Shown: positions 19,277 through 27,000 of the stretch, piece after piece
How the letters are laid out: the number at the start of each line of letters is the position of its first letter
Position numbering within the stretch: the first letter of the stretch is position 1
Assembly (NCBI GenBank): GCA_009869945.1
Contig: WIXG01000216.1
Location: 1 to 64,000 of the forward strand
Length of the DNA: 64,000 nucleotides
Direction: 5' to 3'
Source of the DNA: Mesaphorura yosii
Lineage: Eukaryota; Arthropoda; Collembola; Poduromorpha; Tullbergiidae
Notes under the pieces: model-generated
Told to the model about the DNA's origin: nothing
The model's database searches: none
What the model saw: the letters and a program-made list of their open reading frames with translations, nothing else
Made by a program: the position numbers and the translations under genes

Positions 19277-21316
19277 ATGTCCACGCCGTTGGCTCGAACC
19301 TACAGTGATGAGGATGACAGCGTTTCGGAAGGGGCGTCGCAAGAAATTGAGCATGGAGAGCCTAGACCAAATCAGATTCAAGATAATGATCTGAATCCAG
19401 CGACCACGGCGAATGGCCAGTCAACGAACGCTGTTTCGTCACTTGGGCATATAAGGAAATTCATTAACGCAGCTTCAATTGAAGTCCTACTGTTCCTGTT
19501 CAGATTCGCAATGAGCATTACTGATGTGACAATTCAAACGTTTTATACGGAGACTGTCTGTAATGATATTTTTCGGGTCGATTTGGATGTTAATTGTTCA
19601 AACTTGAATGATACTAGTAAGTCAAACAAAAATGGAGAATTTAACTGGCGTAAGGGACTCTTTTATTCTTTTACTGACACTTTTATTTTACAGAAAATGG
19701 CGAACTTGTAACAGCCACAACCAAATTCTTTATGTACAGGGAAATTATTGAAGCTGGTATTCCGATATTTTTCATTCTGATAATGGGTCAATATGTGGAT
19801 AAACATGGCTCGAAGTTTCCGTTGGTCTACACAAGCACATGCTCCGCGATTACTGCCATTATCTACTTCATTTTGGCATTCATTCCGGATCTGAATCCAT
19901 CAGGACTTCTCGTTGCATCAATTCCTATTGCAATGGGCGGTACTTTCGTTGTCTTCCTCTTCTCATCCATGAAGCACATTGCTAGTAACACAAGCACTGA
20001 GTCCCGAAGCTTAAGAATTGCTATCGCCGAAATCATCTGGCAAATTGGGTCGCCGGTTGGACTGCTAGTGGCCTTACCGGTAAGCTGGACGTGTATGAAC
20101 ATCAAAGTAGCCACAATCCTGTTATCTACTGATTCTGAGTTTCTGGACTTTAGATTCTTAAACACTTCGGGTACAAACCTGTGTTTATACTAGCAGCTGT
20201 TTTATACTTCTTCTGTGTGATTTACGCCATTATATTTGTAACAAATGACCGGCCACACAATGAGCTGATCCCATTGGATTTGGTGGAATCCGATTCGTTC
20301 AAATGTCGGCCATTGTTCAATCTGAGTAATCTTACAGAAACATTCCGAAGTTGTTTCCGGAAAAGACACGGCTTACGTAGAATGTAAGTGTGATTCGTTA
20401 GTAGGCGTTTATATTTTAACTCATATTTGTCATATTTAATGCCCTTTACTACTTTTACGATCATGAAGATGGCTGATGGCTCTATTCGCGATTCTTTTCT
20501 TCCGGTTCTTGGTATATATCGGCGATTATGACATTGCTTACCTGTACACCCAACAGAAATTTAAATGGGCAGGTCAAGAATATTCGTATTATCAAACTAC
20601 GGTTGGACTATTCGCAATTGTCGGTCAGTTATCCTTACTAACTGCAACTAATTTTGAGTTGGAAATTGCACCCTAAATTATTGTGACTATTTAATTTAGG
20701 CTCAATATTGCTGTCAGCTTCTTTCAAATTCTTGCCCTGGTCTGATCCTTTCGTTGGTCTAATCAGCTCAGTTAGCTATCTTTGCGGAATGATCGTTGTC
20801 GCGGCTGCTACACGTGGATATATGATGTATATCGGTAGGAACAGAAAGTAGAAAGTGGATAGCTTTGATTTGACGATTCTATTGGTTGTAAAGGTCCTTA
20901 ATGGAATGAGTTATAATTTTTATTCTTAGGTGCTGCATTTCAAATGTTTTCCAGACTCATCACGATTATTGTACGGTCGTTATCGAGCAAAATTGTCGCT
21001 AAACAAGAAATTGGAAAGGTTTACTCTTTTCTGGGATGCATTGAAAGCATCACGCCGCTACTTGCCTCTCTAATTTTTAATGCCGTCTTCCTCGAAACTA
21101 AGGAAATCTTGACTGGTGCAGTTTACATTTTGTGCTCATTACTGGTGTCAGCCGTCACATTCCTATACTTGTAAGTGGTTTAGACATCGTGCTCCTGCAC
21201 TTTGTCTGGAGCAGAGCTAATGAAGTTCTTTCCTCGCCAGGTGCCTGTACATTTCTATGAAGGGCCAACAGCTGCATCAGGAAGTTGAAGGACATCCTGC
21301 TGGAGTGGAAACATAA
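19277..21316 (+). CDS. SLC46-family major-facilitator transporter
   Basis: Predicted 12-helix solute carrier of 520 residues, the family of the proton-coupled folate transporter (SLC46A1) and its relatives. Exons: 19277-19616, 19694-20079, 20154-20383, 20469-20623, 20700-20834, 20930-21170, 21241-21316, all in phase. An acidic cytoplasmic tail of about 60 residues precedes helix 1 (AASIEVLLFLFRFAMS). The first outer loop carries cysteines and N-glycosylation sequons (NCS, NDT), as is usual for SLC46. Helix 2 leads into the MFS motif A, GQYVDKHGSK (residues 145-154). The second half begins with RFLVYIGDYDIAYLYTQQKF, followed by EYSYYQT, a typical SLC46 helix 7-8 region. The end is a short cytoplasmic tail. 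The substrate cannot be told: insect paralogues are numerous and the family includes folate, hydrophobic-compound and immune-ligand carriers. Likely at the plasma or lysosomal membrane. Confidence 0.88.
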
Positions 21317-21758: not shown

Positions 21759-21764
21759 TTTATT
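21759..21764 (-). terminator. AATAAA polyadenylation signal of the CARD gene
   Basis: TTTATT on the plus strand reads AATAAA on the minus strand, 130 bases past the stop codon at 21894. It lies about 250 bases from the opposing signal of the SLC46 gene, so the transcripts are tail-to-tail and nearly touch. Confidence 0.5.
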
Positions 21765-21893: not shown

Positions 21894-22874
21894 CTAGTCA
21901 TCATCGTCCAACCAATCCTCGTTAACTATCGGCTTAAGAGCTTTAGGAATAATTTCAAAATTACATATTTTGCAGACACCACACCCAGCTGGATTGATGA
22001 AAGTACACTGCGGACACTCCAACGAAGAATTTCCTGGAATATCTTTGAAATCTTTAGTCTTGAAGCACATTTCGCAGACTGAGCCGTACGAGCTATTCAG
22101 ATAGGTGCAGTTCACGCATTCCCATTGCGATTGTGAGCCTTGTTTAGTCTCTTGAAAGTCCATTAGAGGATTCCATTGGATTCTGGAAACAAAAATAAGA
22201 TAAGAGCAAGGTTCAAAATTATTTGGTTGTGTTATAATCTACGTAGTCCGCCCAAAAACTCACTTTTCATATATTGGAAGACCTGCATCTGCATTGGCAT
22301 CTCGAATAATTTTGGCGAAATTCTCGTTTTGTGTTACGTCGAGAGCATCCAACACCTTCGGAAACACACTGGCGTCCTTTTTGACCAAATAAACAAGTGT
22401 GACAAGAGATTTCAGATGCTCGTTTTCATGTCTCATCTGTAAAAATGACACCATACCATTCAAAAATTATGTTCTTCTGTAATACGCAATTGTGCTAATG
22501 CACAGCAATGTCTTAACACTCACAATTGCGTCCTTCTCGTCCAACGTAAGTACTCCTCTTTGAACTAGCTGGATGACTACGTTAGTCGAATTCTTCAACT
22601 CAGAAGCCAGGAAATACAGATTCTTTCGCAAGCTTGCGTCGTCATTGTCCCGGTGAATTGCTCCAACGAAGGCGATTCTGTCCAAACTCGTGTTGTCGTA
22701 CAATGGACGGAGAAACAGGCCGGACAGTGTTACGTGTGCGCTGCAAACTTGCTGCAAGATTCTGAAGGATGAGTCAATTTTCTGGAAAGTGTGTTCAACC
22801 GCTGGAAAACAGCTATCACAAATGTTGTCAGCAGGGTCCACAATCGTTGAATCAGGAACTACGCTGGCAGCCAT
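21894..22874 (-). CDS. CARD + two NZF/RanBP2 zinc fingers protein
   Basis: A 270-residue soluble protein from three exons, read downward: 22874-22524, 22436-22264, 22182-21894, with consistent phases and GTGAGT donors. Residues 79-168 read as a six-helix CARD: LRKNLYFLASELKN, then STNVVIQLVQRGVLTLDEKD (the GVLT-DE turn is typical of CARDs), a fourth helix (HLKSLVTLVYLVKKD), FPKVLDALDVT and FAKIIRDA. Two C4 fingers follow: Cys197/200/211/214 and Cys231/234/245/248. Both carry the Thr-Tyr/Phe pair and a hydrophobic residue before the last Cys (CTY...CEMC, CTF...CKIC), the ubiquitin-contact signature of NZF domains. The tail is acidic (WLDDDD). Residues 1-78 match nothing I know. Inferred role: an adaptor linking ubiquitin chains to a CARD partner in caspase or innate-immune signalling. 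An in-frame ATG at 22916 would add 14 hydrophobic residues; the 22874 ATG fits a cytosolic protein better. Confidence 0.82.
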
Positions 22875-24067: not shown

Positions 24068-27000
24068 TCAACCGTAATAATAGTGGATGTTGGGATGCTC
24101 ACGGTTAAAATTTAAACTTCTCGGGTGATTCATGTCAGTTTCATCTTCCGCAGAATGTCTCAACAGATCCGACGATCTACTATTTGAGAAACACACAACT
24201 TCACTGTTACGACCTAAAGTCGTTGTGGCAGTTCCACCTGCACTACTCGAACAACTTGCTAACGGAAACAGCTCATCGCGCGGAGTGGCCGAACGACGCA
24301 TAATTGAATGCAGGTCGACAATGTCGCCGGGGTCCATCATCCCCACGCTCAATTCGTCAATATCACTGAGTTTTGTGGAGGTCAAAGGACCAACTGAGGA
24401 CGAAGAGGACGGTTTGGCGAAGCTTGAACTTGTGCCGGCTGCACGTTCGGAGTCAGCTCCAGTTCCATGCACGCTGCATTTTCGTTGAATGCCAACTTTC
24501 AGCAGAATCAGGAGGACTAGCATCAGAAGACCGGAAGCAATACTGATTGCGATGTACAAGTACACCCTCTCGGAGTTGTCTGTGGGGAAAGCACAAAGAG
24601 GACGTTAGCACGTGTGTTTCGAGAAAGCGGTCTCGCGATTCGTGACTCGCTACTCGCGAATGCGATTCCAGACTGTGCTATCTTTCTGCTCTCAGAGAGA
24701 TACGCGCACAGTTGCATCCCGCTGTTAATTATGTCGCTTGCATGTGGCGCATCGTGACGCTTCGAATCATTAAAATAGTAATTTTTGTAACTTACTCAAC
24801 ACGAACTCATAAGCCTGAATTCCTTCCGAAAGAAGGTAAACTACGCGGATGTCGGACTCGTCGTACGTGAACTTGTTTGCATTCACCGGTTTTGTGGATA
24901 TTTCATCGCCATTCTCGTCTGAGTGCCTAGCATTGTTTACACTCCCGTGATTATTGAAATTATTAGCACTGTAATAATCACTCTGATTCTCCTCAGGAAC
25001 TGCGCCGGCTCGTATGGATCCGTCACTGTCTTCTGTGTTAATGTAATTCATTTAAATAGTATTTCATTTATTTTGAGCCGGTAAATGGTTAGTGATTCGT
25101 GCAAGTAGCGTGCCTGTGTTATCTTTGCTTTTGGTTCAGTAGCGTTGTTAGTTGAAAAGCGGAAGCAGAGTGGCAGGCTTTGAAATAGATATCAGTTAGT
25201 GCTACAGATAGGCTGCATTTGCATTGAGGATATTCAATCGTGCTCGCCCAACGGTAATAATTAACAGCTGAGAAATTATATTTTTGAAATTTGGAAGATA
25301 CAAGACATTTGACTGACTAGAACACTAGACGAAGAAGCGTGAGAGACAGTTGCGAGAAACCAGTGAACATGAATTGTTCATTTCTTGGTAGTTTTCTTTC
25401 GCAGAAACTTACTAAAAATTGTTAGTAGTGAGATTAAGGCGAGCGCTTGTGCGTAATGCGTGAATTGATCCGGCATAGATAAAATTAGGTTGGTTAGTAG
25501 ACGCTTGCTTTGTGTTAGAGTACAGTACAGTAAGCGGCAAAAATGTGATTGGGATCAAATTAAGACTTTCTCTCACAATAATTCCACTTGATGTGTTTTC
25601 CTTACCTGGAGATTGATTGAGAGACGTTTGATGTGGTTTCTCGGTAGACTTTGGGCTTGGTGCAGCCGCCCAACCTTTCGAACGATCAGGCGAGTAGATA
25701 CTCGGTTGTTCCATTACGGAGGAGAAGGGATCATCAGTAATTTCTTCATCGTTCTCATCTTCAAACATCTCATCCGGCTCGAGTTCACCTTGATACTTTT
25801 CTTTCAAAACTTTCCGAGGTACTGCAAAAATACGAGGAACGAAAAGAAATACGATTATGTGCTTAGTCGGACATTTCTCGCGTTTCCAGGCCGTAGCCAC
25901 GTTCAAGAGCACGCGTACGGAGGGCTTTGGGCTACAACAAATGTGCTCCTTAATGATTATTCCCGTGGCTATCTTTCTTATTTATTAATACTGCACCGCA
26001 AGACATTTAATGCCAGTAGTTTATGATCTGTGACTGGTGGAGTGGGGCGAGATTGCATTGCACCGCGCTGAAGTTCAGCGAAGAAAACTGCGAGGAAGGA
26101 ACTCAATCCACACGCCTGAGTCAACTTAATTTTGAAGTACAAGATTAAACCTTCATGGCTGACTGGACATAGCACGCTTGATTCCATTAAGGGCTTGAAT
26201 GCGGACTAGACTAGACGCGAGACACATTTCAAAGTCATTCAATCCAGTGTGTAATGAACCCATGCGATTACGCAATAGTGCTGTGCTGTCGTTACGTTAC
26301 GTTGTGTTGCCTTGCCTTTGTGACACAGCCAAGCGCGAGACAAAAGTGTGCCGTGGTGCCAGGTCAGACTGTTCACATGCGTGTCCCGACAGTATGTGCT
26401 CCTTGTTTTAGCTTTTGTAACAATTTCATTTGCTTTTCCTTTCTCCCACTCTTTCGCCTTTTCTGCAATTTGTGCTTCGAGAGATCGCCCAAGCCAAGCC
26501 TCTCCATCACCAGTCAGAAAGTTGACGTTGCGTTGCAAGACACGCGTTGCAGACTTGTGTGGCACGAATCTAACTTTCTCTAATGACTGGATTGGCGGAT
26601 GAAAGGAGAAAGCCCGCATCAGCAACTATGCATCACTCATTAAGGACACATGCACGGAAAGGCGAAACTCGAAATGTAAAACATTGGGAATTTGTGTGGG
26701 AAATTAATGATCAAGACTTTTCAACCTAAATCGCAGTTGATGAGAGCGTGAGCGAGTGCCAGAGAGTGAGAAAGGCAAAAAGGAAGGCCGAAAAAGATGT
26801 TTCAACGCTGCGAGCAAGCCCGCACTGATTTCTGCGCAGACATCAGAAAGAAGAGGAAGAGTCGGATGAGAAATTACTCGAGAACACTCTGTGTCGAGTG
26901 AAGATGTTGGGAAAAGGAGATTTTGATGCAAACTCATTATTGAGACTCATTCGTCACTTTACCAGCAGCGGCAGGAGCTTAAATGCAGCACAGACACTTC

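Follow-up and report, generated by a model that had tools for sequence, protein, structure and literature searches.

A collembolan gene that joins a weak CARD to two ubiquitin-type NZF fingers

The 64,000-nucleotide stretch of Mesaphorura yosii DNA analysed here (the window; contig WIXG01000216.1, positions 1 to 64,000) contains a gene for a small protein in which a CARD is followed by two C-terminal C4 fingers with the residues of ubiquitin-binding NZF domains. A diverged second copy of the gene has the same domain order and the same two introns, and we are close to certain that the architecture, a CARD with two NZFs, is right. Our preferred reading, to which we give a probability of about one half, is that the protein would be a ubiquitin-reading CARD adaptor, pulled into CARD assemblies and reading ubiquitin chains there. 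One small protein might in this way connect ubiquitin signals with the complexes of cell death or immunity.

Results

Gene model and coding evidence

The gene has three exons on the minus strand (22874-21894) and encodes 270 residues, with its ATG at 22874 and its stop codon ending at 21894, exactly as placed in the initial annotation. The reading frame is unbroken across both GT-AG introns (Table 1). With 17 long frames from this genome as the training set (some of them possibly overlapping), codon log-odds were 0.13, 0.10 and 0.02 bits per codon for exons 1, 2 and 3 respectively, the last of these barely positive, and the true frame came top of the six each time. Both introns scored negative in all six frames. 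Pfam found no family in the N-terminal 80 residues. This stretch (window 22634-22874) contains a PLYxxTxLxR motif, which precedes the CARD and is common to the window protein and the paralog described below.

Among the neighbouring frames, a convergent plus-strand gene ends upstream (in plus coordinates) of the AATAAA of the window gene, and its frame at 19678-20193 (+) has a sub-threshold Pfam match to MFS_1 (24.2 bits, cut-off 33.4). The frame at 24068-24604 (-) has one clear membrane-spanning stretch by eye and no Pfam match.

Table 1. Features of the CARD-NZF gene in the window.
Feature	Coordinates	Strand	Description
Exon 1	22524..22874	-	Residues 1-117: N-terminal helical stretch with PLYxxTxLxR, then CARD helices 1-3
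Intron 1	22437..22523	-	87 bp, phase 0, after third CARD helix; GTGAGT...CAG
Exon 2	22264..22436	-	Residues 118-174 and part of 175; CARD helices 4-6
Intron 2	22183..22263	-	81 bp, phase 2; GTGAGT...CAG
Exon 3	21894..22182	-	Residues 175-270 and stop; two C4 fingers, acidic end
CARD	22293..22634	-	Residues ~81-165, split by intron 1; from Pfam CARD and own-genome CARD HMMs
NZF finger 1	22065..22124	-	Residues 195-214; contact residues T201, Y202, M213
NZF finger 2	21963..22022	-	Residues 229-248; contact residues T235, F236, I247; L229 instead of the usual Trp
AATAAA polyadenylation signal	21759..21764	-	~130 nt beyond the stop codon of the window gene

A paralog with the same architecture

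A search of the source genome of the window (93 Mb, 1127 contigs) with the window protein revealed a diverged paralog at C3:88673-87486, which encodes 344 residues when spliced, in the order CARD-NZF-NZF. The matching segments were C3:88328-88173 (52% identity over residues 78-130, E 8.2e-7) and C3:87752-87537 (residues 182-252, E 4.0e-4), with weaker matches on C692, C144 and C440. The converse search with the paralog recovered the window gene (E 5.4e-6 and 0.0069), and BLASTP aligned the two proteins with 29% identity over 216 columns (E 1.5e-19). Both genes have introns at the same two positions and in the same phases (0 and 2), intron 1 following the third CARD helix in each.

Since the paralog shares domain order, intron positions and phases, the CARD-NZF-NZF fusion is best seen as a kept gene family and not as a misjoined model. 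The pairing of a CARD with two ubiquitin-type NZFs that the initial annotation had proposed is backed in this way. An origin by chance, or an artefact made from two genes, was considered and rejected in view of the same joined architecture on C3. None of the viral contigs searched with an alignment of the two proteins encodes a relative.

Identity of the CARD

Pfam ranked CARD (PF00619, curated cut-off 23.9 bits) first both for the whole window protein (15.1 bits, E 0.023) and for the CARD piece (18.5 bits, E 0.0021), in each case below the cut-off. A genome-wide Pfam CARD search (E ≤ 0.001) gave seven matches, all above the cut-off. The exons of the window gene itself were missing from this search, as they were from the genome-wide RanBP search (E ≤ 1), and single-exon matches are therefore weak.

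An HMM was built from the seven above-cut-off CARDs of the same genome, with the window and paralog CARDs left out. It scored the window CARD at 35.2 bits (E 1.2e-9), which none of 2000 shuffles reached (best 11.7). The window CARD also scored 22.6 bits with an HMM of the five more distant CARDs, where the best of 1000 shuffles of the window CARD gave 8.9, and 40.0 and 40.4 bits with HMMs of the three nearest and of all eight CARDs, scores that none of 1000 shuffles of the window CARD reached in either test. By these comparisons of sequence, the helical part of the window protein is a weak but real CARD. The CARD called in the initial annotation thus stands as a similarity beyond chance (35.2 bits, 0 of 2000 shuffles), although it stays under the Pfam cut-off (15.1 and 18.5 against 23.9 bits).

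AlphaFold2 models, each predicted from one sequence in which intron 1 was translated along with the exons, carried no confidence (mean pLDDT 38.7 and 47.4), and a PDB sequence search with the CARD piece returned Apaf-1 CARD chains only, all at E about 1, which is no evidence when taken alone. By eye, residues in helices 1 and 4 of the window CARD are basic (R83, K84, K126, K136, K137) and residues in helix 3 are acidic (D112, E113, D115), so head-to-tail CARD stacking would be possible.

The CARD of the paralog is weak. Its Pfam CARD scores were 15.0 bits for the whole protein and 18.5 bits for the piece, below 23.9, with CARD_2 at 15.9 bits for the piece. The seven-CARD HMM gave 9.4 bits for the piece and 12.7 bits for the full protein, and 2 of 2000 shuffles (11.7 and 11.6) beat the piece. 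With the HMM of the five distant CARDs it scored 6.0 bits, a value equalled or exceeded by 4 of 1000 shuffles of its own. The HMM of all eight CARDs gave 13.3 bits, which none of 1000 own shuffles reached, while one shuffle of the window CARD hit 17.4. Good support for it comes from the HMM of the three nearest CARDs alone (24.8 bits, 0 of 1000 own shuffles). Between the two paralogs, 22 of the 37 positions in helices 1-3 are identical, as are 9 of the 45 in helices 4-6; strong conservation of helices 1-3 would be expected if these carry a shared docking face.

The NZF fingers

Both window fingers read C-x2-C-x10-C-x2-C, as do both fingers of the paralog. In the window protein a Thr-Phe/Tyr pair follows the second Cys and a hydrophobic residue precedes the fourth (T201-Y202/M213 and T235-F236/I247), at the positions that the initial annotation gives as ubiquitin contacts of NZFs, placed here by Npl4 numbering. 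The paralog has T-Y-I and T-Y-M at these positions, and so each of the four fingers combines the Thr-Phe/Tyr pair with a Met or an Ile as its third ubiquitin contact. The residue two places ahead of the first Cys is Trp in finger 1 (W195) and Leu in finger 2 (L229), against Trp and Arg in the paralog.

In a PDB sequence search, the closest chains were the NZFs of Npl4 (best, E 0.039), HOIL-1 and TAB2 (up to E 0.096). Fingers of HOIL-1/RBCK1 and HOIP/RNF31 matched at E 0.04-0.6, with HOIP ranking lower. The initial annotation had described two C4 fingers with NZF contact residues, and these are indeed present, with T-Y-M and T-F-I at the contact positions and with ubiquitin-binding NZFs as the nearest PDB chains. 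From the contact residues only, we infer that the window fingers would bind ubiquitin.

Pfam RanBP (PF00641, cut-off 27 bits) matched finger 1 alone at 16.4 bits, the best score in the window; this lies below the cut-off, and finger 2 alone matched no Pfam family. The zf-RanBP profile check proposed in the initial annotation thus gives, for finger 1, a match below threshold. The finger pair of the paralog, taken as a piece, scored 30.3 bits, above the cut-off. The genome-wide RanBP profile search (E ≤ 1) gave 30 matches, with the window fingers not among them. A script-readable C4 pattern was held by 23 of the 30, and a Thr-Phe/Tyr pair was carried by 11 of these 23, including the two of the paralog, and not by the other 12. 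Of the seven dropped rows, two (C165 and C45) by eye resemble fingers of other spacing.

M213 and I247 occupy the position of Q686 in TAB2. There, as described in an excerpt of PMC6220233, the change Q686M stabilises the distal contact and renders recognition linkage-independent.

Relationships among the CARDs of the genome

A tree built over 96 columns from 11 CARDs of this genome paired the CARD of the window with that of C3 (92/91) and joined the pair to those of C880, C440 and C776 (97/96). The pair stood apart from the caspase-joined CARD of C895, the NB-ARC-joined CARDs of C371, C857 and C572, and the CARDs of two other adaptors, C284 and C171. With one starred branch of eight, a short alignment and long end branches, this grouping is a lead and not proof.

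The introns within the CARDs of C284, C895, C171, C371 and C857 lie at profile position about 60, and that of the window CARD at about 42-45. The CARDs of C440 and C776 are without an intron. The C880 gene, whose second exon scored 20.1 bits with Pfam CARD, has its intron at the same place as the window and C3 genes; no NZF or C4 finger pattern was found within its 3.2-kb locus on the strand of the gene. A by-eye candidate frame for a GH19 chitinase (L005 2232-3200 +) adjoins the C440 CARD gene.

In the reverse test, 2107 sequences were ranked with an HMM made from the CARDs of the window and C3; C440 came first and C776 second. The remaining five CARDs lay among the shuffles, at ranks 11, 17, 22, 83 and 1174. 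Given the tree, the CARD intron positions and the reverse test, the apoptosome is not the first candidate for a partner. The link to it raised in the initial annotation is thus not preferred: three non-apoptosome CARD genes form a group with this CARD (97/96), and the intron sits at another position than in NB-ARC and caspase CARDs. The NF-kB branch that the annotation also named, or an NLR branch, may still be where the protein acts.

Genome setting

The genome gave 66 matches to Chitin_bind_4, a cuticle domain whose matches we take to be an arthropod marker. COX1 had no match in the assembly, from which the mitochondrial genome seems absent. There were at least 52 NB-ARC matches, 20 caspase-domain matches on 11 contigs, and Rel-domain matches on two contigs. 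CARD-like N-termini precede NB-ARC in C371 and C857, and weakly in C572 (E 0.017); CARD-caspase and CARD-NB-ARC genes are both present. The one NB-ARC protein checked against Pfam, that of C339, has TPR repeats and a Death domain match below threshold besides its NB-ARC. In C277, an NB-ARC frame is followed by repeats that look WD40-like by eye, and this is probably the true Apaf-1.

The NB-ARC set looks like a large NLR-like family, and with at least 52 matches NLR-like receptors are possible upstream partners of the window protein. To our knowledge, arthropod models have one Apaf-1-like gene; set against that number, the size of the NB-ARC set here suggests that the CARD-NZF protein may belong to an undescribed NLR-like branch. 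Nothing on point about NB-ARC expansion in arthropods was found among the titles and abstract openings listed by literature searches.

Discussion

No description of a CARD-NZF protein was found among the titles and abstract openings listed by searches of open-licence literature, and in an excerpt of PMC9334734 RanBP2 fingers and CARDs are treated as separate genes. The pairing is new but its domains are known, and the protein does not amount to a new kind of system. Animals build their death and immune complexes mainly in two ways, by CARD assembly and by ubiquitin chains; as far as we know, different proteins provide the two in well-studied animals. A protein that has both would make their order testable, that is, whether ubiquitin holds a CARD assembly or the assembly collects ubiquitin.

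How might such an adaptor work? Its starting point can be read from the gene, which encodes a CARD and two C-terminal ubiquitin-type fingers. The CARD would join a CARD assembly, whose most likely builders are the C776, C440 or C880 genes, and this assembly may lie below the NB-ARC receptors of the genome rather than in an Apaf-1/caspase apoptosome. Many tandem fingers would be gathered together there, and through this clustering ubiquitin chains produced on or near the assembly would be bound firmly, even though the contact of each single finger is weak. Bound fingers could then hold the assembly or recruit chain-making or chain-reading partners; we would guess that ubiquitin binding stabilises the assembly or recruits partners of the TAK1 or LUBEL type. 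With Met or Ile where TAB2 has Q686, each finger is predicted to make single-ubiquitin (Npl4-like) contacts and to show little preference for linkage, in which case avidity from CARD clustering and from the finger pair would set the response. As it has no recognised enzyme domain, the protein would act as a reader or scaffold. Ubiquitin is described in an excerpt of PMC4134136 as binding the CARDs of NOD1, NOD2, RIG-I and MDA5; as ubiquitin-binding CARDs are known, the joining of both functions would be a plausible step for selection. A bolder version, which we put forward tentatively and consider rather unlikely, is a direct NLR-to-ubiquitin bridge in some arthropods: CARD assemblies seeded by an expanded NB-ARC receptor set would recruit CARD-NZF proteins, and the tandem fingers of these would collect ubiquitin chains, so that one protein does the work that NOD-RIPK2-TAB2 divides among three.

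The same domains could serve an opposite end. The CARD might be a decoy that caps CARD assemblies, with the NZFs passing these to ubiquitin-dependent removal by Npl4/p97, the proteasome or autophagy. CARD-only proteins act by competition, and a brake of this kind would suit a small protein without an effector domain, whose finger 1 has Met at the third contact position and most resembles that of Npl4 (best PDB match, E 0.039). However, the sequence data do not separate an activator from an inhibitor, and two kept paralogs suit either role; we regard a brake as possible but doubtful. It is a good deal less probable that the ligand of the fingers is RNA or some other protein, as it is for other RanBP fingers, leaving a CARD adaptor with a structural tail. 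Their low Pfam scores would agree with this, as would the many fingers of another kind in the genome (12 of 23 C4 fingers lack Thr-Phe/Tyr), but the window and paralog fingers all have Thr-Phe/Tyr with Met or Ile, like the TRABID-like and other ubiquitin-type fingers found, and their closest PDB chains are ubiquitin-binding NZFs.

Where the CARD docks is a separate question. The initial annotation raised docking on an Apaf-1/caspase apoptosome, which would link ubiquitin to caspase activation. The genome has CARD-caspase and CARD-NB-ARC genes, and Apaf-1 CARDs were the sole PDB matches of the CARD piece, at E about 1. Against it, the tree separates the window and C3 pair from the caspase and NB-ARC CARDs (97/96), the reverse HMM test placed only C440 and C776 above all shuffles, and not the caspase or NB-ARC CARDs, and the CARD is interrupted by its intron at a different point (profile position about 42-45, not 60), so that we think an apoptosome role unlikely. 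Least probable by far is that the CARD assignment of the helical part is wrong, or that the model fuses exons of two genes. Sub-threshold Pfam scores and AlphaFold2 models without confidence (pLDDT 38.7 and 47.4) would fit such an error, whereas the CARD score was reached by 0 of 2000 shuffles, the paralog has the same joined architecture and intron phases, and the frame is continuous through both GT-AG introns. A ubiquitin-reading CARD adaptor is the reading that we prefer.

Within the same genome, the proteins of C692 and C144 are comparable in having two NZFs, the second at the extreme C-terminus, all with T-Y and M or I. Their similarity to window finger 1 is weak (BLAST, E 0.04 and 0.05), and unlike the window protein they are paralogous frames of 641 and 577 residues without a CARD; Pfam finds only fingers in the C692 frame. 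CARD-only proteins (COPs) are likewise small CARD proteins without an enzyme domain, to which the window protein adds ubiquitin-type fingers. The LUBAC subunits HOIP, HOIL-1 and SHARPIN bring NZF fingers into death and immune signalling. The window protein shares such fingers with them, but has a CARD instead of RBR, UBL and PUB domains, which were absent among its Pfam families up to E 10.

TAB2 and TAB3 have a CUE domain, a coiled coil and a C-terminal NZF that reads ubiquitin chains in immune signalling. The window protein has the same type of C-terminal NZF (TAB2 NZF sequence match, E 0.096). In contrast to their one NZF, it has a CARD and two NZFs, with Met and Ile replacing Gln686 of TAB2, and CUE was absent among its Pfam families up to E 10. 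The CARD module of NOD1/NOD2-RIPK2 also couples CARD signalling to ubiquitin, and an excerpt of PMC4134136 describes the NOD1 and NOD2 CARDs as binding ubiquitin themselves. Pfam found no kinase or NOD domain in the window protein, and its putative ubiquitin reader is a separate pair of fingers on the same polypeptide as the CARD.
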